Assembly: GCA_011391085.1 (NCBI GenBank) | Contig: JAABRD010000017.1 | Location: forward strand, 1-64,000 | DNA from: Thiotrichaceae bacterium | GTDB lineage: Bacteria; Pseudomonadota; Gammaproteobacteria; Beggiatoales; Beggiatoaceae | Direction: 5' to 3' | Length of the DNA stretch: 64,000 bases | Part shown: positions 483-44,836 of the stretch, one piece after another | Numbering within the stretch: position 1 is the first letter of the stretch | Layout: the number at the start of each line of letters is the position of its first letter | Made by a program: the position numbers and the translations under genes | The notes under the pieces: generated by a model | What the model was told of the DNA's origin: nothing | The model's database searches: none | The model's input: the letters and a program-made list of their open reading frames with translations, nothing else

Positions 483-1235
483 TCAAGTGAGAAATGCTAT
501 ACCAAATCGCAGAGAGTGTTGTTTTCGAATGGCGTTCAACTCTGTTTCCAACCACCTATTGATGAAGGGAGTGAATAGAGTTTGGTTCGGGTGATGTTCT
601 TTCCGTTTAATATTCTTATCAATATTTTTATAGAAACCCAATTTGCTTGGCAAGGTTCGATATAACCAAATTGGAATGGGCAGTAGTCCAAATAGATAGG
701 TGCTATAGTCGACTTGATAGCCAAGCTGTTTCAATTGCTGACTCAACCTCCCTATCGTATATCTTCTAAAATGTCCAACCTGTTGGTCATGGTTGGACCA
801 GAGAAAAGGATAGGCTGGCACCGTCATAAAGAGTTTTCCATTGCGGACCAGAACCTGTTTCACACGGTCCAAGAACTCGCTGTCATTTTCGATGTGTTCT
901 AACAAGTCAAACAGTCCAATAGCAGGAATAACATTTTCAGAAAAGCCACATTCCTCGAAAGTAGCACAGAGTATCTGTGTTATCCCGCGTTTCTGCGCAT
1001 TTTGAATACCGGTGAATCCAGGTTCTACGAGAGAAACATCAAACCCCAGTTTTTGAAGTTCCCGCGACACCACGCCATTGCCACCACCGACATCAAAAAA
1101 TGGAGTTCCTTTCGCTAGATGCTGTTTGACAACTTCACAAATACAGCGGTTCCGATGAGAATACCAAAATGAAGAATCTTCTACTTCAAAACAAATTGCC
1201 TGATTCTCTTCAGGGTACGAAATGGGTTTAATCAT
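483..1235 (-). CDS. class I SAM-dependent methyltransferase
   Basis: The 250-residue product carries a Rossmann methyltransferase core: motif I FFDVGGGNGVV near residues 47–57, the acidic loop VSLVEPG, and the post-motif GLFDLLEHIEND, close to the DxLEH pattern of UbiG/Methyltransf_11 enzymes. The later segment VLVRNGKLFMTVPAYPFLWSNHD is the usual strand 5 region of sugar- or lipid-modifying methyltransferases of glycan clusters. Substrate is not readable. It sits next to a GT-C type membrane glycosyltransferase on the same strand, separated by a repeat array, so a role in surface glycan or lipid modification is an inference from context only. Confidence 0.8.
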   Translation of the reverse strand: MIKPISYPEENQAICFEVEDSSFWYSHRNRCICEVVKQHLAKGTPFFDVGGGNGVVSRELQKLGFDVSLVEPGFTGIQNAQKRGITQILCATFEECGFSENVIPAIGLFDLLEHIENDSEFLDRVKQVLVRNGKLFMTVPAYPFLWSNHDQQVGHFRRYTIGRLSQQLKQLGYQVDYSTYLFGLLPIPIWLYRTLPSKLGFYKNIDKNIKRKEHHPNQTLFTPFINRWLETELNAIRKQHSLRFGIAFLT

Positions 1236-1363
1236 TAGTGAAATCCAAATATGGGTGAAATAGGATATGCTGAAGTGGAGGCTTTATATAGGTGAAATAG
1301 GATATGCTGGAGTGGTGGCTTTAGCCGGTGGGGGTTGGCACCGAGTTAAACTCAGGGGAAAAG

Positions 1364-1567
1364 CCACCAGCTAAAGCCTCTACTCCAACACCGCCACCGG
1401 CTAAAGCCTCTACTCCAACACCGCCACCGGCTAAGGCCTCTACTCCAACACCGCCACCGGCTAAAGCCTCTACTCCAACACCGCCACCGGCTAAGGCCTC
1501 TACTCCAACACCGCCAGGGGAACAGCCGCCGGCTAAAGCCTCTACTCCAACACCGCCACAAGCTAAA
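1364..1567. repeat. tandem array of a 30-bp unit of repeat family A
   Basis: A 30-bp unit beginning CTAAAGCCTCTACTCCAACA repeats head to tail from about 1364, with units at 1371, 1401, 1431, 1461 and 1491 and a last one after a short insertion near 1517–1531. Units alternate between CTAAAG and CTAAGG. The unit is one arm of the GGCTTTAGCCGG / CCGGCTAAAGCC palindrome family found throughout the window; an oppositely oriented arm lies at about 1307–1336. The array is open in one plus frame (repeating PPPAKASTPT) but that is a by-product of a period divisible by three. There are no spacers, so it is not a CRISPR. Confidence 0.9.
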
Positions 1568-1569
1568 AC

Positions 1570-3123
1570 TTAATTTCTTCTCCTCAACAGTTGAAAATTT
1601 CCCGGCAAGCCAGAAATCGGAACCAGTTGGAAATTTTCTATAATATATTCCCAAACCAACCTATGAGTGTTCCGAAAGCGCAAATCATCGCGTCCATCTA
1701 GCGCAACATCTCCCAGTAAGATCCAATTCACCCGGTGAGTTTGCAAATCTGAAATCATTTTCCGCGCTTCTGGTTCAGAGATTCTCCAGGCCAAATAAGT
1801 GTCCCACCAGGGAGATTTTCTTTGCAATATCGGATAGAACGCCGGCCAGTGCGGGGCAATGACGAAGCTTTCTTCAGGTGAAACGAGTTCGGTATTAATT
1901 TGGATAACCGTTTGGATAAGCTTGGCGGTATAAGTATCAATCCATAAATTCTCACCACGAAGATTGAACAGCACGAAATTCTCTTGAGGTTGGATAAGCT
2001 TCCGGTAAACTGGATGGACTTTTCCTACCGTCAGCAATGACAAAGAACACAGCACCACTAGCAAGCTGTTAAATATTTTTTTGGAAATCGATGGTTGATA
2101 TAACATTGGCAATGCCAACAGTCCGATTAAGAGAGGATGGATGGCAAACGCCAGGTGTCCTAAATCAGCGCGGGAAAATGCGTATTGAAGATAGGTTACT
2201 TCGGCAAAGAAGCAGGCGATAAGAGGCGCAACTGTTTGAAGAGGTCGTTTCGCCCAAATGAGATACATTCCCACCAGCACACAGAAGACTGGTAGAAGCA
2301 GAAAAAATAGTCCGGTCGATACCGCAGTGGCTATGTCTGACCCATTCCCCTGGGTGAAATCGACCAACCATGGCCAGGGCACCGGTAAGGGTAAGTTAAA
2401 GCCCTCCCGAGTGAAGATAAACTCGACGCGTTGCACGAAACTTTCCCAAACACCGGGGATGCCGATGAACATGAGAAGCATTGGAAGATAGCCTACTCCG
2501 ATTCCGACACTCCACACGACGAGTCGTTTGAACAGGTCGTGCCGATCGATTTTATACCATATCATCAAGATTAATCCCAACGACGAAACGCTTCCGAAAA
2601 AACCATGATGTTCTCCAAAACAGGCCATGATACCAACCAGTATTCCTATGAGAAAATGTCTATGCAACGAAGGTTTTTCAATCAACAGAGTTCCTCCATA
2701 GACGAACATCATAGTTAGGCTATGTTCAAAGACCTTATGATAAGGATACATCCAGATCAGCAACAACAGTCCGATAAGGCATAATGTTATCCAGGAACGT
2801 GTGAGACGACGTATGGTCAGTAATCCACAGGTTAATCCGATCACTTGGAATATTGCAATACTGGCGCGAACTCCCAAAATACCTTGGCCAAATAAAAATG
2901 ACCAGGCCGCCGTCCAGTAATATCGTCCAGGTTGATAAGACCGAAAATCTCGAAGCGGAATGTCTCCCATAGCGGATCGCCAGGTACCGTACCAAAGATA
3001 ACCTTCATCAGCTAAACCGAGGCCAATATGACTTTGTAATAAAAAGGAAATAATAACAAGTGCGACTGCTATTGATATAATGGTTAGAGTTTTCGTCATT
3101 TTCATAATTTTCATATAAGTCAA
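1570..3123 (-). CDS. GT-C type membrane glycosyltransferase (PMT/ArnT-like)
   Basis: The product (517 residues, or about 5–9 fewer if one of the later ATG codons is used) has an N-terminal membrane segment, then ADEGYLWYGTW around residue 38, the acidic loop motif expected in the first periplasmic loop of GT-C enzymes that use polyprenyl-phosphate sugars. About ten further hydrophobic segments follow (for example LCLIGLLLLIWMYPYHK, LLIGLLALPMLY), then a soluble C-terminal domain with the EESFVIAPHWPAFYPIL stretch. Family assignment rests on topology and the DE loop; the donor and acceptor cannot be named. It is transcribed toward the methyltransferase at 483–1235. Confidence 0.65.
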   Translation of the reverse strand: MTYMKIMKMTKTLTIISIAVALVIISFLLQSHIGLGLADEGYLWYGTWRSAMGDIPLRDFRSYQPGRYYWTAAWSFLFGQGILGVRASIAIFQVIGLTCGLLTIRRLTRSWITLCLIGLLLLIWMYPYHKVFEHSLTMMFVYGGTLLIEKPSLHRHFLIGILVGIMACFGEHHGFFGSVSSLGLILMIWYKIDRHDLFKRLVVWSVGIGVGYLPMLLMFIGIPGVWESFVQRVEFIFTREGFNLPLPVPWPWLVDFTQGNGSDIATAVSTGLFFLLLPVFCVLVGMYLIWAKRPLQTVAPLIACFFAEVTYLQYAFSRADLGHLAFAIHPLLIGLLALPMLYQPSISKKIFNSLLVVLCSLSLLTVGKVHPVYRKLIQPQENFVLFNLRGENLWIDTYTAKLIQTVIQINTELVSPEESFVIAPHWPAFYPILQRKSPWWDTYLAWRISEPEARKMISDLQTHRVNWILLGDVALDGRDDLRFRNTHRLVWEYIIENFQLVPISGLPGNFQLLRRRN

Positions 3124-3175
3124 TACTTAGGACAAGTTGGCCAAAATCATATAAAATAGATGACTTTAAAGAGAA

Positions 3176-3285
3176 CAATGTGGGTGGTTTTCTGTAGGGG
3201 CAACCCTTGTGGTTGCCCTTGAAGATAGCGAGTCTCACCTCCCCACGGGCAACCACAAGGGTTGCCCCTACATCACCCACATTGC
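3176..3285. repeat. inverted repeat / possible MITE
   Basis: Arms at 3194–3218 and 3247–3271 are exact reverse complements (GTAGGGGCAACCCTTGTGGT... and its complement), and the match continues outward with CAATGTGGGTG near 3177 and CACCCACATTG near 3275. The element lies in the 250-bp gap upstream of the glycosyltransferase gene. It contains no ORF of note. A folded transcript would form a strong hairpin, so it could also act on expression of the flanking genes. Confidence 0.8.
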
Positions 3286-3373
3286 ATCACTACCCAAAAC
3301 ACATACTTTTTACGAATTTAATCAAATAGTCCGAAGTATTGAAGGAAACAAGGTTGCTTAATAACACCGCGTC

Positions 3374-4033
3374 TCACTCATTTTTGACAGGTTGTGTGTC
3401 ACGCCCGCCAATTTGATTCATCAGATAATCGGCACTCATAACATACCCTTTGACCAGCGGATACCCCGCGACTTCCAAGGCCGACGCGGTCCAGTGATTG
3501 CAATTATTCAGCAAATGGTATTGACCCTGCGCCTGGTAAAAAAAACCTTGACCATACACACTGTTACCCACTGGCAAAGCCCGACCTTGAATGTCATGGA
3601 GATAACTAAGATGAATATATTCACATAGGTGAATAAATCCGTCCTCTGATAGACGTACTTCCGCGACTTGACCTGGTGGAAAACTCACCTTGGGCGAATT
3701 TGGCAAAACGACAACATGCAAAACGCTGGCACTGGGAAATAACAATGCTTGCAGACCTTGACTGAGAGACGGTTGTCGCGCCTGATAATAATCGGCGGCC
3801 CCCCACCCCACTTCCAGATAATTTGCATGGAGAAAGTCACCAACTTCTGGCCAAATCGTCTCAGGTATGTCACTTCGTTTGATGGCAATACCAGTATGTT
3901 TGCCATGATTGACAACATAGACCATTTTAACCAGTTGCTGTGGTGAAAGTAAAGACGGACTAGATTGAGGATTCGCACAACTGTTAATAAATAGCAGAGA
4001 AAACAGAAGGCAAAGGTTGTTTAACATGGTCAA
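3374..4033 (-). CDS. DUF2459 family lipoprotein
   Basis: The 219-residue product starts with a lipoprotein signal (LCLLFSLLFINSC, lipobox Cys near residue 19). The body matches the DUF2459/TIGR02117 family as I know it: VYVVNHGKHTGIAI, EVGWGAADYY, a central SASVLHVVVLP strand, and a C-terminal YHLLNNCNHWTA, whose Asn-Cys-Asn-His-Trp resembles the thiol-type active-site region of papain-fold amidases. That family has no assigned function. An outer-membrane or periplasmic location follows from the signal. It is monocistronic as far as can be seen. Confidence 0.8.
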   Translation of the reverse strand: MTMLNNLCLLFSLLFINSCANPQSSPSLLSPQQLVKMVYVVNHGKHTGIAIKRSDIPETIWPEVGDFLHANYLEVGWGAADYYQARQPSLSQGLQALLFPSASVLHVVVLPNSPKVSFPPGQVAEVRLSEDGFIHLCEYIHLSYLHDIQGRALPVGNSVYGQGFFYQAQGQYHLLNNCNHWTASALEVAGYPLVKGYVMSADYLMNQIGGRDTQPVKNE

Positions 4034-4424: not shown

Positions 4425-6024
4425 TCAGTTTCTTTTTCTAATCGGTGTATCTATCTCTTTATGACATTGTTGGTGATAGAGGTTCACGTTCTTGTTTTTG
4501 TCCTTCCCTCCTTTGCCCTTCGCCACAATGTGGTGAGTTTCTAGGTCTTCAATTCTATCAAGTGTGAATCTTCTCTTGCAGTGGGGACAAACTCCGTTCT
4601 GTACTTTGTAGAGAAATTTCTTTCTTTGGGTAAGTCCAGTCAGGTTTCTCTTTTCCCAATATTCTTTATTTTCCAACCATGTACTCCCTTTTGCTACCGA
4701 GATATATTTGGTGGTTTTTGGGACCTCTGCAAATCTTACTTGTCCAATGTCATACTCATCAAGGAGTTTATGGTTTCTTCTGGTTATTTCAAAGTCTATT
4801 TTTCTGAGTTGTTTCCACATTTTGCCGCTGGAGAATTTTGCCGCGTAGTTGTGTACGCCTCTCCGTATTGAGTTAGTCTCTTTTTGTATTCGGTGTTGCC
4901 CTCTGCCATATTTCAGACTTTGTTTTAGTGCCACTCGTGTCTTCTTTGTCATCTTGGTGGCTAGTCTGATTCTCTTTCCTCTTTGTATTTCATATCCCAG
5001 AAAGTCAAATGGTTCCTCGGTGATAATTCTAGTTTTTGATGACTTGAGTTCAAGTCCTGCTATTGTCAGTTGTTTGGTTAGCCAGTCTATGACCTTCTGT
5101 GAGACTTCAGGTTGCCATTTATGGTCTTTGCCTCGATGTTTTGGTACGATGGTTATTACCAAGTTGTCGGTGTATGTTGTTAGGTTTATGGATTTTATGT
5201 ATTTTCCGGATACTGTCTTAGGTGTTTTGATTATTTGGGCGTCAAGTATAGTTCTCAGAACCAAGTTGCTTAGTGTGGGACTTATGATGCTTCCTTGTGG
5301 TGTTCCCATATCCTCTGTCACTAGCGTGTTGTCGGTCTCTACAGGTCCCGCCTCCAATAGTCTTTCTACGAATTTTCCTATGACGTTTTCAGTCGGTAGT
5401 GACCTGATGTATTCATGGTTTATTTTATCAAAACATTTGGCAATATCTGCTTCAATGACTATTGCAGTTTTTCCTTTGTGTGCAAAGGTGGTAAGGCTTG
5501 CTATTGCATCAGCCGTTGAGTGGTTCTTTCGGAATCCATAACTTATGACTGTGTATCAAGTGTTCAATCTCAATTTCTAGTATTGATGTAAGGATGTTTT
5601 GCGCAACTCTGTCGTATTGGGTTGGTATTCCCAGTGGTCGTTTGGTGCCGTCTGGTTTTGGGATGTATTTCCTTCTAGTTGGCATTGGTCTCCACTTTTC
5701 ATGGTTTAAATCTCGTCTTAGATTGTCCATAATTTTTGACACTTGCCGCTGGTTGGTTAGTTTATTCTTAATTCTATCCACCCCAGCGGTTTTCTTGCCT
5801 CTGTTTTGTTGGGCAAGTTTGTACAGTGAGGGTATTTTGTTGTATTGGCTATTTTTCATTAGTAGTTGGAATCTGTTTATTTTCTTTAACTTACATTCGC
5901 TAACCGCCCTAAACAGTTGTGTCTGCAATTCTTGTACTTGTTTAGCGGTCTGTTTGATTAGACCACTGGTAAAGTTGTTTCTCTTCTTGGTATCAGAAGT
6001 TCTTAATCTATTACCTTTACGCAT
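4425..6024 (-). pseudogene. group II intron reverse transcriptase/maturase with HNH domain, frameshifted
   Basis: Two overlapping frames together encode one intron-encoded protein of about 530 residues. The first (6024 to 5509) covers RT0–RT2 with KIPSLYKLAQQNRGKKTAGVD and KRPLGIPTQYDRVAQ; the second continues SYGFRKNHSTADAI, IEADIAKCFDKINH, GTPQGSIISP, the maturase region and a C-terminal HNH domain (CPHCKRRF, THHIVAKGKGG, NLYHQQCHKE). The switch needs one extra base near 5541–5547. The catalytic YADD box reads YTDN, losing the second aspartate, so polymerase activity is doubtful even if the frame were restored. Both faults point to an immobile, decaying element. Confidence 0.9.
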
Positions 6025-6410
6025 TTATGTGTTGAACCAGATATTCAACAACTATTTCGGAAACTTCCTAGCGTCACTTCCGTCCCTTATTCCCTTGGGT
6101 TTCAGCGTTTCTATCAGCCTGAATATTGTTATGATTCCATTCTACACGTACTTTTGCGCTTCTGTAAATTCTGAATCAACTTGCTATAACTTTGGTCGGC
6201 CTTGATCTGTTTCATACCTCATCTCGTATTTTGATTAGCAAGAATTTATTGATTAATTTAGGTTGTGACTATACCCCTTGCACCTTTAGATGATTCTGAA
6301 TGTCTGTTTACGCATTCAGATAAGTGCTTTAACTCTGTGTAGCTTTAGAGGCTTCAATTATTTCTTTGCTTGCGCTAACCTTATTAATCTCTCTACTCAG
6401 GTGGCAACTT

Positions 6411-6788
6411 CTAACAGAGTCTCCTAATCTTGCCTCTCCCTTTTGTCCCCCCGCTATACACCCTGATACTCTTATAGGAGTCCAGAGGTCTGGGGGTTAG
6501 TACTCCACTTCTCATCAGTGGCGGGAAAATCTCACCCTATTTCTTTCTATCTTTCGTCATAACTGTTTGAATTATCGAGTTTTATTATGATTTTTTACGA
6601 CACACTAACAGTGCCTCCTAAGTGAACCTTTCCGCATTTGTCCTGTCGCTATACACTCTAATAGTTTGTTAGAACGAGAGTGGTCTGAGAGTAAGGACTT
6701 CATAAACTACCCAGATTACAGCAGTTTCTGGTTTTCACTCAATGAAGGGGGAATCTCACTCCATTTCTTGACGCCTAACTAGGCACAC
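6411..6788 (-). ncRNA. group II intron 5' region, two diverged copies
   Basis: On the minus strand a GUGUGCC sequence begins at 6788, fitting the GUGYG 5' end of group II introns. Domain-I-like RNA follows. Two homologous blocks are visible: 6605–6769 and 6411–6545. They share GAGTGAGATT/GGGTGAGATT, a GTGTATAGCG box with an upstream pairing strand, and CTCTGTTAG/CACTGTTAG, but differ at many positions and in loop lengths. Only the second block lies at the usual distance (about 500–550 nt) upstream of the protein start at 6024, so the first block may be the 5' end of a second related intron. Boundaries are approximate. Confidence 0.6.
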
Positions 6789-6934
6789 CCCACCCTACAC
6801 GGGCTGAAAACCGCTTCCGAGAGGAGGTAATCGTCACTCATTGATGGGTCCGCCAGCGCGGGCGGGCTGATGGTCAGTAAGCCAAGTGTGGTCAGCAACA
6901 CTTGCTGGTAAATAAGTGATTGAATAAATTTCAT
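6779..6934 (-). pseudogene. small secreted protein, truncated at the intron junction
   Basis: A frame of 51 codons starts at an ATG at 6934, preceded by AAAGGA at good spacing. It encodes a clear Sec signal peptide (basic MKFIQ, hydrophobic VLLTTLGLLTISPP, ALA cleavage site near residue 28) and only about 20 further residues before it runs into the intron 5' end at 6788 and stops at 6779. The ribosome site and signal peptide argue that this was a real gene, cut by the intron or by the GTAGGGTGGG repeat that abuts the junction. The original function is unknown. Confidence 0.55.
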
Positions 6935-7020
6935 AAGAGTGTTATCCTTTAAGTTAAGTAGTTATCATCAATTTGACACTACCGGAGTTGTTTACTTTTC
7001 AATTGTTCAGGAGAATCACC

Positions 7021-7251
7021 ATGTTATCATTCACTGCCAAAGTCAATAATTCTCATGGCCGACAATCTATCCTCTTACCCAAAGAAATTCAGTTGTCGGC
7101 AACCGAAGTGGTTATTTGTCAACACGGGGAGGAGATTATTCTGTCTCCCAAATTACCTACTTGGGAACATTATTTAGCCACCGCCCGCCCAGCACCGGCC
7201 GAATTTATGATGGAGGTGACTGATGAACCTCCTCAAGAGAGGAGTTTTTAG
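7021..7251 (+). CDS. vapB: VapB-type antitoxin (AbrB/SpoVT-like)
   Basis: I start at 7021, where CAGGAG precedes the ATG by 7 nt; an earlier in-frame start at 6973 lacks such a site. The 76-residue product begins MLSFTAKVNNSHGRQSILLP and contains the swapped-hairpin DNA-binding pattern (short β strands, ILLPKEIQL) followed by an acidic tail with WEHYLATARPAPAEFM, the toxin-binding region of VapB antitoxins. It is followed 2 nt later by a PIN toxin gene, the standard VapBC order; the complex usually represses its own promoter. Confidence 0.8.
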   Translation: MLSFTAKVNNSHGRQSILLPKEIQLSATEVVICQHGEEIILSPKLPTWEHYLATARPAPAEFMMEVTDEPPQERSF

Positions 7252-7253
7252 TC

Positions 7254-7667
7254 ATGCACCGTCGTTATTTGCTGGATACAGATACTTGTAGTTACGTGAT
7301 GAAACGTCATCCTTTATCGGTCTTGACACAGTTGCAAATGGTAGAGGCATCACGTTTGGGTATTTTGGTTATCACCTTGGCAGAGTTGCGTTACGATGTG
7401 GAACGTTTAAATTCCAGTCGTTTTACCCAATCCGACATTGATTCTTTTATTAGCTACTTGACGGTGCATCCGTGGGAAGCACGGGCGACTCAACATTATG
7501 CCACCTTGCGTACCAAATTAGAACGTCAAGGGACTCCGATTGGCAATCTGGACCTGTTGATTGCCGCCCATGCTTTGAGTTTGGATGCCATTTTGGTGAG
7601 TAATAATCAACGTCACTTTTCCAGAGTGTCTGGATTAACTTTAGAAAATTGGGTCGAGGTGACATAA
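7254..7667 (+). CDS. vapC: VapC-type PIN ribonuclease toxin
   Basis: The 137-residue PIN protein starts YLLDTDTCSYVMKRHP (first catalytic Asp), has the second acidic site in ITLAELRYDVERLN, and ends with IGNLDLLIAAHALSLDAILVSNNQRHF, giving the third and fourth acidic/NN positions. It looks intact. The ribosome site GAGAGGAG lies inside the end of the antitoxin gene, so the two are translationally linked. VapC enzymes cleave structured RNA such as tRNA; the target here is unknown. Confidence 0.88.
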   Translation: MHRRYLLDTDTCSYVMKRHPLSVLTQLQMVEASRLGILVITLAELRYDVERLNSSRFTQSDIDSFISYLTVHPWEARATQHYATLRTKLERQGTPIGNLDLLIAAHALSLDAILVSNNQRHFSRVSGLTLENWVEVT

Positions 7668-8540
7668 GTAGGATGCGTCCCACGCACCATTCTATTAATA
7701 GTCAGAATCAGAATTTACAGAATGAACCCCCACCAACCCATGTCTTCCAATTCTAAAATTCTGCAAATTCTGATTCGAACATAAACGGCAAAGACCTCGT
7801 AAGTTTTGAAAACCTACGAGGTCTGATGGAGGTTGGAGTACGGAATTAATTCCGTCCAACTCTCCTTATCGCCACCATCCCCACTGACGACCGCATTAAA
7901 CTTCACCTGTTGCGTTGTAGCGTTGTAGCGTTGTAGGGTGCGTTAGCAACCGCGTAACGCACCATCGTATAAATTGCTATAAAACCATAAAAATAGTGCG
8001 TTACGTCGCAAACACACGCGCCTAACGCACCCTACAGGTCTCATGGAGGTTGGAGTACGGAATTAATTCCGTCCAACTCTCCTTATCGCCACCATCCCCA
8101 CTGACGACCGCATTAAACTTCACCTGTAGCGTTGTAGCGTTGTAGGGTGCGTTAGCGTTGTAGCGTTGTAGGGTGCGTTAGCAACCGCGTAACGCACCAT
8201 CGTATAAATTGCCATAAAACCATAAAAATGGTGCGTTACGGCGCAACAACACGCGCCTAACGCACCCTACACTCGCTAAAATTCTGCAAATTCTGATTCT
8301 GACAAGCAGTTGTCAAATAGTCAAGTCATAAACGGTAAAGACCTCGTAGGTTTTGGAAACCTACGAGGTCTGGGAGGGTTAAACTTGATAGAGTAGGGTG
8401 GGCAACCGCTTTATCGTTGCCCACCATTGGGGAGTAAATTGGTGGGAAAATAAACATTTGCCCACCCTACACGGACTCCAGTGGTAGATTGAAACGGTGG
8501 AGTCCAAGACACGTCTTGGACTCCGATTGAGGCTGTCAAC
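7668..8540. repeat. gene-free block of nested duplicated repeats
   Basis: No gene was seen in 870 bp. A segment of about 210–235 bp is duplicated in tandem (about 7821–8033 and 8038–8272); each copy holds a GTAGGGTGCGTTAGC…TAACGCACCCTAC palindrome and a GGAATTAATTCC box. The pair is framed by two copies of the perfect hairpin GACCTCGTAGG…CCTACGAGGTC, at 7793–7823 and 8340–8370, each preceded by the same AATTCTGCAAATTCTGATTC sequence. A family D element follows at about 8393–8472. The arrangement looks like growth by duplication of a repeat composite. Confidence 0.85.
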
Positions 8541-9239
8541 CTATGGCTTTCTCTCCTCTTCGCCAATCTTGTTGATGGATTCTACCACAAAGATTTCGGT
8601 CCCCAAAATGGGCATCCATTTTAAGGTGACTGCGTATCTTTCGGTGTAGTGCCCATAATCTTTGCCAACGATAGGGTTCAACAGAGGCATTTTGACATCC
8701 ACGGCTGGTAGTGTGGCGAGTCCTTGGTCTAAGTCAAACCGGGCGCAGGTCGTATCTGCTTCCACTTTAACCAGTTGTGTCACTTCTTGAAGCACGAAGC
8801 GGTCATTGGTGCCATTCACCTGTTTCAAGGTGGTTTCATAGTAGAGACTTTCGCCCAGTGGGTCACCCATTAGGGACAGTAGTGGAATTTCCAGAACGGG
8901 GATGGTGAGGGTGTAGTCTTCTATGGAATAGCGGGCGTGTTCACTACAAGTTGGCCAGATGGTGATGTCATTTTCGCCAAATGGAGGACAAGTGTTGCCT
9001 GTGCAAGAAGGAGAAGAAGTGAAATTCGCCGTCACACTCTTATTGGCCGTCATGGTCACTTGGCAACTGGTTCCAGAACAATCGCCACTCCAATTGGCAA
9101 ACTGGTAACCACTGTTGGGGGTGGCAGTTAGAGTCAGTTGCGTATCCTTTGGATAGGAAGTTTGGCAGGTGTCACCGTTGCATTTGACCGTGCCGTTGGT
9201 AGCATTGGTGGTAAGAGAATATGGACCACCACTATTTAA
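8541..9239 (-). pseudogene. 3' part of a repeat-module secreted protein, in a shifted frame
   Basis: The frame is open from 9239 to 8541. It begins, without a start codon, with an InlB/Listeria-Bacteroides-type repeat (GTVKC, TLTATPNSGYQFANW, SGDCSG, VTMTANKSVTANF), then two copies of a module with a Cys start and alternating β strands (CSEHARYSIEDYTLTIPVLE; CARFDLDQGLATLPAVDVK). The same module occurs twice at the end of the gene ending at 9232 in the other frame, 8 nt away. The simplest reading is one former gene broken by a frameshift at 9231–9240; independent translation from an internal ATG at 9059 is possible. Confidence 0.6.
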
Positions 9240-40497: not shown

Positions 40498-41853
40498 GTG
40501 TTAAAGGAAAAAGACCTGAAGGGATTTAAAAAGAACGATCTTTTCAGTGACCTTATTGAAGCCATGAATTTGACACCACTTAAATCGGTAAAAAGCTTTT
40601 ATTTACTAGAATACTTTTACGTTCTTCTCAAAAGTGTCGAAAAATATTCGGATGAACCTAAAATATTTGAATCGTTCAAAGCTTTGAAGCAAGAACATCG
40701 CTTGGGAGAGTCTAAGTATAAAAAACTCACTTGGGATCATGACCGAAATATTTTATCTAAACTGCAAGAGGACCGTTATCAGAAGACTTTTAAAGAGGTG
40801 TTGGAGGAATCTCAAGAATATAACCTGATTGAAAATGTTAACGACTATTGGAGACTCACTGAAGAAGGTAGAAAATTACTCACCCGTTATCAAAGTGAAG
40901 GTACTCTGCCTTTTAATCGGGCCCTCTTCAAATTGATGGAGGCCAAATATCAGGCTTTTCGTCAGCTAGTAACTCTATTCTACAAAGCTAATAAATATCA
41001 ACCTGGCTTGCTGATTTTTCCAAGTTATTCCCCAAGATTACTGGATCTCGAAAAACCGGCGATTAAAACTACAGCGGATATTATTCAATATTCAAAGCTA
41101 TTGGTTAATCGACTTCAGCAAGATATACAGAAGTATTTAGGAGAAAGTAGAAATTTACAGAAAGAGAATGATGAACTTTTAGCACGACTGACTGAGAGTA
41201 AACTGTTACCTGCCAATCTAAATGATAAGTTTGACCCCAAGGAATATCATAGTATTATAAGCAAATTTAGAAATTTCTGGAGGATCTATTTTCTCCGGGA
41301 AATTTACCAATACGAATCTATTATGTTCTCGTTTGACCGATGGATTTATCGAGGTAAACAAATTGGAGTCATTCATGCCACTGACTTCTATCCGTACTTT
41401 CATGGTAAAATTGTTTATCCCATTTCAGTCATAACCAAAGCCACGGCATCTAAAGATTTCCAAAAACTCTATGATTACCCTGATGATATTGGATTTTATG
41501 TTCACCATCCTATAGTGGAGGACAACGACAATCAAAATAAATTTGTTGACGGTCTGGTTAAGGCGTATTTTGGCTTACGACGTTCCAATCGTAGCTATTT
41601 CGTTAATCTTTTGGCAGTTCGAGAACTGGTCTGTTATAATCTGAAGATACCTGAATATTTATTTGATCAATTTTTAGAAGAAGCCTATAAACTCAATCTT
41701 CGAGGTCAATTAAACATTGGTATTTCCCTTGAGGTGGACCGTTTGCCAGAAGAGACACAAGCGTTATATTTGGCCCAAGAACCCGTGATGGTGGAGGGTA
41801 AGTACCGGAACATTATCGCTATTGAAGTAGGAAAAAGAGGAAACAGTAGATGA
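40498..41853 (+). CDS. unrecognised large protein with winged-helix-like segment, operon gene 1
   Basis: The frame begins with GTG at 40498 just after GGGGA, a poor spacing, so the true start may be a later codon such as the ATG at 40564. The 451-residue product is charged, with a possible winged-helix wing YNLIENVNDYWRLTEEGRKLL near 108–128, a coiled coil at about 203–235, and a mixed α/β second half with GFYVHHPIVED and LLAVRELVCYNLKIPEYLFD. No family was recognised. The stop overlaps the ATPase gene by 4 nt, implying a shared complex. Confidence 0.7.
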   Translation: MLKEKDLKGFKKNDLFSDLIEAMNLTPLKSVKSFYLLEYFYVLLKSVEKYSDEPKIFESFKALKQEHRLGESKYKKLTWDHDRNILSKLQEDRYQKTFKEVLEESQEYNLIENVNDYWRLTEEGRKLLTRYQSEGTLPFNRALFKLMEAKYQAFRQLVTLFYKANKYQPGLLIFPSYSPRLLDLEKPAIKTTADIIQYSKLLVNRLQQDIQKYLGESRNLQKENDELLARLTESKLLPANLNDKFDPKEYHSIISKFRNFWRIYFLREIYQYESIMFSFDRWIYRGKQIGVIHATDFYPYFHGKIVYPISVITKATASKDFQKLYDYPDDIGFYVHHPIVEDNDNQNKFVDGLVKAYFGLRRSNRSYFVNLLAVRELVCYNLKIPEYLFDQFLEEAYKLNLRGQLNIGISLEVDRLPEETQALYLAQEPVMVEGKYRNIIAIEVGKRGNSR

Positions 41854-43253
41854 GTAACAAATTGTTAAATAAACCACGTAAACCACTCCCCGAAGGGGCC
41901 GGGAAGTTTCAGCAATTCCACTTAGCCGAAAATCCGTTTCCCGCTGAACCTACGGTGAATAAAGACTCTAAGGACAAGAGAATTAACGGCAACATTTATG
42001 AAATGGAAATTCGTCAACACGAATATGAACAGTTTAACACCGCATTTTTAAAACGACCTCAAGCTGACCCAAATCACCTGCGTTTAGGGTATCTGATTGA
42101 CACATCTTATATTGGGCGTGGCAATGGTAAAACTGCATTTCTAGTGAACTTGCAGCAGGATATTAACAGGGAATATTGTTTGGATTTATCGGAGGGCTTA
42201 AACAAATGTTTTGCCATTTATTTGTCTCCAGATTTGGGGGGCAGAACCAAGACCTTTCTTAATTTTGCGGACCTTCTGTTTCAAGCACTGTTAAGTTCTC
42301 AGGTCATTGAGAACTGTTTGGCCAGCTTACGATTGGAGGCGATTGGCCAATTATACCCGGATCAGAATTTGGACATGGAATTGGCAGATGAAAAATTGTT
42401 GGTCAATCATCTCAATTCAGAAAATTGGTTTGGGGAACACAATTTTGATATAGTCAAGATTGTGCGAACTGTCTTCAAGAATGAATACTTACAAGATATT
42501 CCTAATGATTTTCCGCTGTTTCAAGAAAGAAACAGTCTAATCCCTAAGTTGGTTTCATCAATAGATTTTAAGCAACACTATCTTGACTTAAAAGCGAAAG
42601 ACCGGTTGGATTTTTTGTTTTCTCACTTAATTCGCTTCTTTCAAGCCGCTAACTTCAATGGCGCGTATGTTCTGATAGACGATTTTGAACGGATTCCGGA
42701 CTTCCAGAGTGCCAGGCAAAAACGAGATTTTGCATTAGAATTACGGTCCTGTTTGTTTGATGGCTTATATGTCAATGCCAGACTAGGTTTTTATAACTTC
42801 TTGCTGGTATTACATGCAGGGGTACAACGCCTTATCAGTGATGCCTGGACCCAGTCCGGGATGGAAAATCGTGCCCCACTTTCCCCACAAACTGCTTCCA
42901 GACATATTATTCCTTTTGAAAAATTGAGTAGGGAACATGCTTCTTTACTGTTGAAAAAATATCTTGCCGAATATCGCACGGAAAAAACGACAGATGCGCT
43001 GTTTCCCTTTACCGAAGATGCAGTGGGTAAAATGGGTGAATTATCCGAGTATAACGCTGCCAAGATTCTCAAAATGGCTTATGATCTTTTGGAAAAAGCC
43101 GTAGCATTAAAAAGCACGCCTAAAATTGATGCTAAGTTTGTGACCGAACATATCGAATCACAATCACTGGCTTCTTATTCTAGTAGCCTCCCCACGATTG
43201 ATAAGGCAGATACAATAGATTTACAGAAGAAGTTGGTCCATCAGGAGGAATAA
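41850..43253 (+). CDS. P-loop ATPase (ORC/STAND-like), operon gene 2
   Basis: The 467-residue protein starts at an ATGA overlap with the gene before. Residues 80–100 read as a P-loop, YIGRGNGKTAFLVNLQQ (GKT at 93–95), which lacks the first Gly of the classic GxxxxGKT. Walker B is AYVLIDDFERI (DD at 277–278), followed by a sensor-like strand NFLLVLHAGVQRLI and a helical lid with ELSEYNAAKILKMAYDLL. The layout suggests an AAA+/ORC-type or STAND ATPase. An N-terminal FHLAENPFPAEP motif is like the start of some transposition or phage-defence ATPases. Function unknown. Confidence 0.75.
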   Translation: MSNKLLNKPRKPLPEGAGKFQQFHLAENPFPAEPTVNKDSKDKRINGNIYEMEIRQHEYEQFNTAFLKRPQADPNHLRLGYLIDTSYIGRGNGKTAFLVNLQQDINREYCLDLSEGLNKCFAIYLSPDLGGRTKTFLNFADLLFQALLSSQVIENCLASLRLEAIGQLYPDQNLDMELADEKLLVNHLNSENWFGEHNFDIVKIVRTVFKNEYLQDIPNDFPLFQERNSLIPKLVSSIDFKQHYLDLKAKDRLDFLFSHLIRFFQAANFNGAYVLIDDFERIPDFQSARQKRDFALELRSCLFDGLYVNARLGFYNFLLVLHAGVQRLISDAWTQSGMENRAPLSPQTASRHIIPFEKLSREHASLLLKKYLAEYRTEKTTDALFPFTEDAVGKMGELSEYNAAKILKMAYDLLEKAVALKSTPKIDAKFVTEHIESQSLASYSSSLPTIDKADTIDLQKKLVHQEE

Positions 43254-43261
43254 GGAAGCCA

Positions 43262-43639
43262 ATGCACTATTGCATGAACAAGGAGGAATTAAGGCAATTT
43301 CTTGACTACCAACTCCACCATCGTGAAGTTAGCAATGAAGAACTGCGTAAGTGGATAGACCAAGCAGAAAATTGGGAAGACGAATTGGGTTGTCTGGCTT
43401 ACCTGTTTGCCGAAATCTTAGAAAAGCAAGCCAAACTAGGTGTGAATTGCCAACCGTTGATAGAACTGTTATACCAACTGCCCGAACAGATGAATCTTTC
43501 CATTCAGGAATTTGATTCGGACTTTGTTGAATACCTGTTGCGAAACACCAGAGAACCCGGTTTGTCACTGGAAGAGGAGTTAGTAAGGCTACAAAATGGT
43601 TTAAGAGAACGTCGGTATGACAAAACGTTACGTTATTGA
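43262..43639 (+). CDS. small acidic protein, operon gene 3
   Basis: The 125-residue product (start at 43262, or MNKEEL at 43274) is helical and acidic, with WIDQAENWEDELGCLAYLFAEIL and LSLEEELVRLQNGL. It lies 8 nt after the ATPase gene, whose end carries a GGAGG ribosome site, and overlaps the PIN gene by 23 nt. Size, charge and coupling to a PIN gene are what an antitoxin or adaptor would show, but there is no DNA-binding motif. Unrecognised. Confidence 0.7.
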   Translation: MHYCMNKEELRQFLDYQLHHREVSNEELRKWIDQAENWEDELGCLAYLFAEILEKQAKLGVNCQPLIELLYQLPEQMNLSIQEFDSDFVEYLLRNTREPGLSLEEELVRLQNGLRERRYDKTLRY

Positions 43640-44063
43640 CACAAACTCCCTAATTTTCTACTTTAATAAAATATTTGGAGAACCTGACAAGTTATCTGCA
43701 AAGGCTCGCCTCCTGATAGAACGGGCCGTGAGTAGTTCAGAGAGTGACATCAAATTGAGTATTCCTGCGGTGGTTCTGGTGGAGATATTTGAAAAATGGA
43801 TACGAACTGAAGAATTCGGGGCCAAGTTTCATTACGAAGTATTTAGCTTAATTAGTCAATCGCCCAATATTGAAATAAAACCGATTGAACGAGAAGTGCT
43901 GGAAAATTTATTGAAAATTGGTGCTGAGTTGCGTAATCATGATTTGCACGACAAGATTATTTTGGCCTCGGCCATGATGCTTGAGTGTCCCCTTATCACT
44001 ACTGACAACAAAATTATTGAGTATGTTAGGAAGTATCACGTTATTCCAGGAATTATCAATTAG
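43617..44063 (+). CDS. PIN-domain nuclease, operon gene 4
   Basis: The 148-residue protein has all four acidic PIN positions: Asp8 in RYVIDTNSLIFYF, Glu56 in AVVLVEIFEKW, Asp112 in RNHDLHDKIILASAM, and Asp130 in LITTDNKII. It appears complete and catalytically competent as an RNase. Unlike ordinary VapC it is the last gene of a four-gene, overlapping operon with an ATPase, which suggests the nuclease is controlled by the ATPase complex. Confidence 0.85.
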   Translation: MTKRYVIDTNSLIFYFNKIFGEPDKLSAKARLLIERAVSSSESDIKLSIPAVVLVEIFEKWIRTEEFGAKFHYEVFSLISQSPNIEIKPIEREVLENLLKIGAELRNHDLHDKIILASAMMLECPLITTDNKIIEYVRKYHVIPGIIN

Positions 44064-44103: not shown

Positions 44104-44649
44104 ATGTTGAAACTAAACACGCAAAAGGCATCCTTCTATCCACTGTATCAACAAGATATGAACTCCGTGGTCTTAGACGACACCGGCAATTTGATGTTGA
44201 CCACCAGTGATAAGCAAGCCTATCTATGGAAAATGGGCGAGTTTGAAAAACCTCTGGTCACTTATCCTGAGACGTTAAGTGGCACCTGGTGGGCCGCCTT
44301 GAGTCCAGATGCCCAACAAATTGCCGTGGTAGGCCGCTATTTTGTGATTAATCTGTATCCTCAAAATAATGAACCGCCTTATACTCTAGCAGGTCATAAA
44401 GACAGTGTCTTACGCGCTATTTTCAGTCCCGACAGTCTCCAATTGGCGACAATTGGAGGAGACAACACGATTCGGTTTTGGGATTTGCTGCAACACAGTG
44501 AGTTATTCACTCTCACTTTGCCCACCGCAGGTAAAAATGTGGTTTGGGATTTTGATTTTCGTTGCACCACCACGGAACCACACTGTTGGATGGCGGCGCC
44601 GTTGACGAAAAATAAGCAGGTGGTAGTGTATGATTTGGGGAAGTATTGA
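44104..44649 (+). CDS. WD40-repeat protein, short
   Basis: The 181-residue product holds about three WD40 blades: LDDTGNLMLTTSDKQAYLWKM, LSPDAQQIAVVGRYFVINLY, and the best one, LAGHKDSVLRAIFSPDSLQLA with IRFWDL. A closed propeller needs about seven, so this is either a fragment or part of an oligomeric propeller. It starts 40 nt after the PIN gene on the same strand and could be a fifth operon member or the remnant of a larger NACHT/WD40-type protein. Confidence 0.6.
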   Translation: MLKLNTQKASFYPLYQQDMNSVVLDDTGNLMLTTSDKQAYLWKMGEFEKPLVTYPETLSGTWWAALSPDAQQIAVVGRYFVINLYPQNNEPPYTLAGHKDSVLRAIFSPDSLQLATIGGDNTIRFWDLLQHSELFTLTLPTAGKNVVWDFDFRCTTTEPHCWMAAPLTKNKQVVVYDLGKY

Positions 44650-44749: not shown

Positions 44750-44836
44750 CGGTGGACTAGAGGCTTCAGCCGGTGGGGGGGCACGATAATTTCAATATCT
44801 GTTCGGCACTCTCCGGCTAAAGCCTCTAGTCTACCT
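44750..44836. repeat. family A palindrome
   Basis: GGTGGACTAGAGGCTTCAGC … GGCTAAAGCCTCTAGTCTACC, with the GGGGGGCACGATAATTTCAATA centre, between the WD40 gene and the convergent cytochrome c' gene. Confidence 0.88.

Follow-up and report, generated by a model that had tools for sequence, protein, structure and literature searches.

According to the sections of two surveys drawn on here (PMC10853773, PMC12839542), the combination of an ORC/Cdc6 ATPase of the AAA+ class with proteins containing multiple winged helix-turn-helix domains (multi-wHTH) and a nuclease is a recurrent counter-invader theme, in which the multi-wHTH proteins are fast-evolving, and PIN endoRNases are counted among the backup effectors of BREX loci. 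PIN domains are also described as essential in two phage-defence systems, DS-3 and DS-5, in the portion of the DefensePredictor study cited here (PMC13092281). Here we describe a compact operon at positions 40498-44063 of a 64,000-nt stretch (contig JAABRD010000017.1, positions 1 to 64,000; "the window", whose numbering is used throughout) from a Thiotrichaceae bacterium. Its four genes encode a protein with a modelled winged helix, a likely AAA+ ATPase, a small protein and a predicted PIN nuclease, and the complete set recurs in a distant genome.

A four-gene operon conserved in two distant genomes

Four open reading frames (ORFs) on the + strand are packed together in the order A-B-C-D:

Gene A, 40498..41853, + strand: 451 aa, GTG start; basic protein with a modelled winged helix at about residues 33-141
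Gene B, 41850..43253, + strand: 467 aa; AAA+-like ATPase with IGRGNGKT, YVLIDD and an N-terminal ENPFPAEP motif
Gene C, 43262..43639, + strand: 125 aa; small acidic protein, the least conserved member
Gene D, 43617..44063, + strand: 148 aa; predicted PIN-domain nuclease with D8, E56, D112 and D130

The ORF coordinates confirm the tight packing claimed in the original prediction, which had been made from the letters of the stretch: A and B overlap by 4 nt, B and C are separated by an 8-nt gap, and C and D overlap by 23 nt. For gene A, an ATG at 40564 may be the true start, because the part of the protein that can be aligned with the second copy begins near there. The original prediction described the gap in front of the operon as lacking the repeats that fill other gaps; compared with itself, this gap shows no direct or inverted repeats of at least 12 nt.

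Scanning a genome-contig collection for gene D yielded 269 pattern stretches and one relative, which led to a second complete A-B-C-D set on contig JAOUOT010000012.1, deposited as a Spirochaetia metagenome-assembled genome (MAG; hereafter L004). Gene order and strand arrangement are identical to those in the window, and the lengths are near-equal:

L004 A, 4897-6249: 450 aa, 49% identical to window A over the alignment
L004 B, 6246-7640: 464 aa, 52% identical to window B over the alignment
L004 C, 7645-8019: 124 aa, 27-29% identical to window C (BLASTP 3e-15 for the single pair)
L004 D, 8001-8450: 149 aa, 50% identical to window D over the alignment

The junctions are likewise close, with a 4-nt overlap between A and B, a 4-nt gap between B and C and a 19-nt overlap between C and D. 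That order and junctions have been retained at approximately 50% identity argues strongly for selection on the unit, and its recurrence as a whole in a genome so distant makes the operon more than a chance grouping. Conservation of gene order in other genomes, which the original prediction had proposed as a check, is therefore found in L004. We infer that the hosts of the two copies belong to different phyla, the window host being proteobacterial. The HtpG encoded in the window reaches at most 57.9% identity to records of a plasmid collection; the 12 matches listed out of 315 come from Aeromonas, Salmonella, Escherichia, Klebsiella and Proteus, and most of the 315 belong to other genera, Rhizobium among them.

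Predicted properties of the encoded proteins

By family profile and conserved residues, gene D encodes a PIN nuclease. The protein matches the Pfam PIN family PF01850 (E 1.5e-9; 39 bits against a cut-off of 23.6), its L004 counterpart also lies above the cut-off (25.4 bits), and D8, E56, D112 and D130, which we take to be the catalytic acidic residues of PIN, are invariant in both copies, as expected from the complete PIN domain proposed originally. Gene C is a candidate inhibitor or adaptor of D. Its description as a small acidic protein holds for the window copy (isoelectric point, pI, 4.8) and less so for the L004 copy, which is less acidic (pI 5.9). None of Pfam, PADLOC, NCBIfam and PHROGs gives C a usable match; all matches listed for A, B and C in these four family libraries have E >0.01, and sequence searches of solved structures yielded no usable match for any of the four proteins.

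The product of gene A has a basic pI in each copy (8.9 in the window and 9.3 in L004). Its structure model has an overall predicted local distance difference test score (pLDDT) of 51 and is confident at about residues 41-70 and 91-130; residues 33-141 align with winged helices of the PadR, MarR and MukF type with Z up to 9.3. This locally confident part of the model supports a winged helix in A, in agreement with the winged-helix-like first protein of the original prediction. Helices at about residues 191-260 are fairly confident, and pLDDT is below 50 nearly throughout after residue 269. A second winged helix after that residue was suspected only from low-confidence secondary structure and is not claimed. 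A has no usable match in the four family libraries (a weak match to an integrase PHROG had E 0.012) and no Foldseek match at E<=0.001. Membership of A in DUF4007/SspB was considered and rejected: neither PF13182 nor PADLOC gave a match, and hhalign against one DUF4007 protein gave E 0.73.

Gene B carries the atypical Walker A and the Walker B VLIDD described originally. In its P-loop, IGRGNGKT, the first glycine of the canonical GxxxxGK[ST] is replaced by I88; the loop reads IGRGNGK[TS] in the two copies, so that the G-x-G-K-[TS] core is kept and the first glycine is lacking in both. The Walker B segment is YVLIDD in the window and YILVDD in L004, and both copies share IGRGNGK, ENPFPxEP and YxLxDDFERIPDFQS. 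The nearest folds to the B model are tied: archaeal ORC2 (1w5t; Z 9.9, root-mean-square deviation, rmsd, 3.6 over 173), TnsC (8fcu; Z 9.4, rmsd 4.0 over 168), BrxC (9zll; Z 9.2, rmsd 4.6 over 188) and the RuvB lid (Z 9.4, rmsd 2.0 over 74 aligned). These Z values are only suggestive, because a best Z of 7-8 is typical without a clear match and because the chains were preselected with Foldseek. Judging by their titles and the classes that we presume for them, the proteins in the listed fold matches are AAA+ or STAND-type ATPases; taken with the Walker motifs, they point to AAA+ as the likely class of B. With moderate support, B is therefore likely a divergent AAA+ ATPase resembling ORC/Cdc6, TnsC and BrxC.

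Sequence comparison gave a weak match between B residues 260-404 and the AAA+ protein HslU, with an E of 5.1e-4 that applies to a single genome, the best among the 398 covered. In summed local scores, B against this HslU, preselected as the best of 398 genomes, reached z 9.3 with none of 300 shuffles as high, and B against two non-AAA controls gave z -0.1 and -0.2 (300 shuffles each). PADLOC, NCBIfam and PHROGs gave no usable match for B; DS41_1 (NCBIfam E 0.056) was rejected after it matched 5 of 19 genomes, none of the 19 above cut-off and none in the window genome. No housekeeping family, the outcome named originally as a refutation, was matched by A or B in the libraries searched.

Distribution and genomic context

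Searches with gene B in genome sets around the window genome, which overlap one another, recovered little beyond the window genome itself: it was the only one among 57 relatives and, with a B profile, among 42 genomes of the order and 369 genomes of the class, while in 398 genomes of the phylum the two hits were the window genome and one other, whose HslU was matched as a generic AAA+ protein. The B profile likewise found only the L004 genome among 344 genomes of its phylum, and gene A only the window genome among 398. By tblastn, B was not found in plasmids or phages, nor A, D or L004 B in plasmids; searches of viral contigs gave no relatives. A scan of the genome-contig collection with B gave 10 pattern stretches and no relative, and it missed L004 too; the sensitivity of the peptide-pattern method is therefore low, and the true copy number may be well above two. 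Four stretches with the P-loop peptide were discarded as not relatives, two lying in long terminase-like ORFs (read by eye) and two in 14-residue frames.

The guanine-cytosine (GC) fraction of the operon is low (A 0.364, B 0.402, C 0.418, D 0.380) relative to 35 other window ORFs hand-picked as likely genes (mean 0.460, standard deviation 0.023, minimum 0.408), with A, B and D below all 35. This fits a recent gain, and horizontal gain of the operon is moderately supported. Of 18 distinct neighbours in the window, 17 match ordinary Pfam families and one matches none; they include cytochrome c', thiamine and haem enzymes, FtsW/RodA, ketol-acid reductoisomerase and parts of a type II secretion system, and an HtpG gene lies upstream of the operon. 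In the segment 39850-45000, 20 promoter-like sites (12.3 in shuffles, standard deviation 3.5) and 4 terminator-like sites (4.2 in shuffles, standard deviation 2.2) were set aside and not used.

A WD40 ORF of 181 aa (Pfam) lies at 44104-44649 and starts 40 nt after gene D, where the original prediction had placed a WD40 fragment. A full WD40 propeller is larger than 181 aa, and this ORF is probably a fragment outside the operon. An inverted repeat with 23-nt arms (91% complementary) lies 3' of it at 44751-44835.

In L004, a gene for a type IIG restriction enzyme-methyltransferase is directly upstream of the operon (PADLOC 1.4e-186), with housekeeping genes beyond it (ORFs read by eye). No WD40 ORF follows the operon within the short stretch to the contig end (about 650 nt past D). 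An ORF at 8808-9100, cut by the contig end, contains a PD-(D/E)XK-like IECK motif by eye and matches no Pfam or PADLOC model. Inverted palindrome copies flank the L004 operon at 4790-4840 and 8460-8505, the longer being 51 nt. A 44-letter pattern with at most 3 mismatches matched exactly twice in the 3.0-Mb assembly, a draft MAG that may lack or collapse other copies, and one copy folds far better than its own shuffles (z -9.1). The palindromes are a lead to a mobile cassette, not proof; each sits after the 3' end of a gene, and a terminator or an element of the repetitive extragenic palindromic (REP) type could be the alternative.

A possible parallel in an Ssp/BREX-like locus

Testing for DUF4007/SspB, a family found in 5 of the 166 genomes of the set concerned, led to a locus with parts of similar kinds (L026) in a genome of the same class as the window (G852, contamination 7). 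Positions 969-4009 of this locus encode a 369-aa protein, a PIN-like protein and a 409-aa TniB-family AAA+ protein (P0001) among Ssp/BREX-like genes. The PIN-like protein begins with IVDTCSLIN, read by eye, and has no Pfam match. P0001 and B have in common an NPFPxxP motif, and their Walker B and lid residues are co-linear; they differ in the P-loop, which reads GEYGSGKT in P0001 and IGRGNGKT in B, and the two sets of genes differ in order and sizes. P0001 was found in neither plasmids nor phages, and P0002 and P0003 were not found in plasmids; the search for P0001 in the order of its host covered that one genome, and its solved-structure search returned only two designed repeat proteins. The trio is a possible distant parallel of the operon. 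It demonstrates that an ORC/TniB-type ATPase occurs beside a PIN-like protein in a locus with defence genes, which is no proof of kinship, and kinship of B with P0001 is unproven.

Proposed function and alternative explanations

From the genes observed, the retention of the whole set in a distant host and the conserved PIN residues, we infer a sensor built from an AAA+ ATPase and a winged-helix protein that would control a PIN RNase within a horizontally moving counter-invader or addiction module, a reading that we put at slightly better than even. The four genes would act, and move between genomes, as one functional unit. A, basic and with a modelled winged helix, would bind nucleic acid, and B would assemble with A, the ATP state of B reporting a trigger, for instance foreign DNA that invades or replicates. 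D would be a PIN RNase kept silent by C, by the A-B complex or by both. The trigger would release or recruit D, and the resulting cleavage of RNA would stop growth or block the invader, perhaps a virus or plasmid; an ATPase-gated nuclease of this kind, as suggested originally, is plausible. In favour of this reading we count the order, strand, lengths and junctions kept in L004, the PIN profile scores of D in both copies, the fold likeness of B and the modelled winged helix of A, the low GC of A, B and D, the finding of B in only 1 of 42 genomes of the order, the type IIG gene beside the L004 operon, the parallel trio of L026 and the published counter-invader and PIN defence themes. The narrower version, an undescribed counter-invader system whose divergent ORC/Cdc6-like ATPase, together with the winged-helix protein, would detect foreign nucleic acid and then license the PIN RNase by way of a dedicated small adaptor, the genes passing between phyla as a cassette, is put forward tentatively, at somewhat below an even chance.

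Several results weigh against the sensor reading. Only two copies were found, in the window and L004, and no third copy emerged from searches of limited sensitivity. The B model is weak (pLDDT 57, predicted template modelling score, pTM, 0.55) and has no Foldseek match at E<=0.001; Pfam returned no family for B at E<=1 and none for L004 B at E<=10, a missing AAA+ profile match not excluding a divergent AAA+ member. Similarity of B to P0001 is marginal, since 1 of 200 shuffles reached the hhalign score (E 0.0096) and 6 of 300 the pairwise score (z 2.5), and A and D have no detectable similarity to their counterparts in that locus. The GC of gene C (0.418) lies inside the range of other window genes. 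No defence gene was identified among the 17 Pfam-matched window neighbours (Pfam scan; PADLOC was not applied to the neighbours). No defence island, a setting that the original prediction proposed to check, is seen among the 18 neighbours of the window copy (Pfam); only the L004 copy has a restriction-modification gene, the type IIG one, alongside.

The main competing explanation, an enlarged toxin-antitoxin (addiction) module, casts D as a VapC-like toxin and C as its antitoxin; A and B would serve to regulate this pair or make it stable, and phage would not be sensed. The position of C directly 5' of a PIN protein, with an overlap of 23 nt in the window and 19 nt in L004, and the low conservation of C (27% identity against 49-52% for the other three) are what such a module would lead one to expect. 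C, however, has no usable family in the searched libraries, so that no known antitoxin domain is seen, and two large genes have been retained beside the C-D pair, whereas ordinary two-gene VapBC modules have no extra large genes. We consider this explanation unlikely, at about one chance in a few.

An improbable alternative is that the operon is part of a mobile element, with the ORC/TnsC-TniB-like B and A serving maintenance or movement and C-D being a passenger or addiction module. The likeness of the B model to TnsC, among others, the low GC of the window copy and the two inverted palindromes that bracket the L004 operon, with no other copy found in the assembly, are in its favour. However, A-D have no transposase match, the sole integrase match being the weak one of A in PHROGs (E 0.012), no repeats bracket the operon in the window, and the L004 palindromes follow gene 3' ends and could be terminators or REP-like elements. 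A unit for cellular RNA processing or stress, with ATPase and PIN RNase cooperating by analogy with PIN-PhoH proteins and playing no counter-invader role, would account for an ATPase-like protein beside a PIN protein, for the weak match of D to a PhoH-like PHROG (E 0.038) and for the housekeeping surroundings in the window, but is very improbable given a presence in only 1 of 42 genomes of the order and 1 of 344 of the L004 phylum, the low GC and the restriction-modification neighbour in L004.

The libraries searched contain no family model for three of the four proteins, yet the unit is intact in two distant genomes, and the operon is a small, cloneable system overlooked by PADLOC, a defence library that works by homology. 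Should the ATPase gate the PIN enzyme as the sensor reading holds, the theme of an ORC-type AAA+ protein with a winged-helix sensor would extend to a PIN effector, and the operon would offer a simple model, of four genes only, for the triggering of such sensors.

Comparison with known systems

No named defence system could be assigned to the set originally, and none is indicated now: A-D have no match in PADLOC-DB 2.0.0 at E<=1 and their L004 counterparts none at E<=10, and among the titles listed from an open-licence library none was recognised as describing the four-gene set.

VapBC modules resemble the operon in having a PIN protein after an overlapping small gene, as with C-D, and differ in that four genes, two of them large, are conserved together in both loci here in place of a two-gene operon, and in that C has no recognised antitoxin domain. 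RADAR, as far as the cited part of its description extends (PMC9994260), likewise joins an AAA+ protein to an enzyme acting on nucleic acid, the RdrA ring with the RdrB deaminase, and differs in its effector and in comprising two genes. Foldseek matches B weakly to RdrA (E 0.027), which was not listed in sequence searches of solved chains with B. DS-3 and DS-5 share with the operon a PIN RNase domain, which in those two systems is the part essential for defence; in the cited portion of their description (PMC13092281), DS-3 consists of a single protein and DS-5 of two (PIN plus a DUF5830/AcrIF4-like protein), with no ATPase described, which sets them apart.

A further likeness is to the ORC/Cdc6 counter-invader neighbourhoods, including Ssp with SspB/SspC and the HerA/FtsK capture loci, which in the surveyed sections likewise place a winged-helix protein beside an ORC-like AAA+ protein and a nuclease, and whose multi-wHTH proteins include DndG, at 450-500 residues similar in size to A (PMC10853773, PMC12839542). 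Unlike them, the four-gene unit is without DUF4007/SspB, SspC/BrxC, PglZ, HerA or sulphur-modification genes, and no PglZ or sulphur-modification family was found among the 18 window neighbours (Pfam). Membership in Ssp/BREX was rejected, there being no DUF4007/SspB partner and no SspC/BrxC match in PADLOC for A-D, and B is no closer than chance to SspC-like proteins (z 1.3, with 34 of 300 shuffles as high, and z -0.8, with 247 of 300). The operon further differs in the single winged helix seen in A, the PIN effector, the deviant P-loop of B and the lack of family models for A-C. The architecture of winged helix, ORC-type AAA+ protein and nuclease is a recognised theme, and the gene set that carries it here appears to be new.

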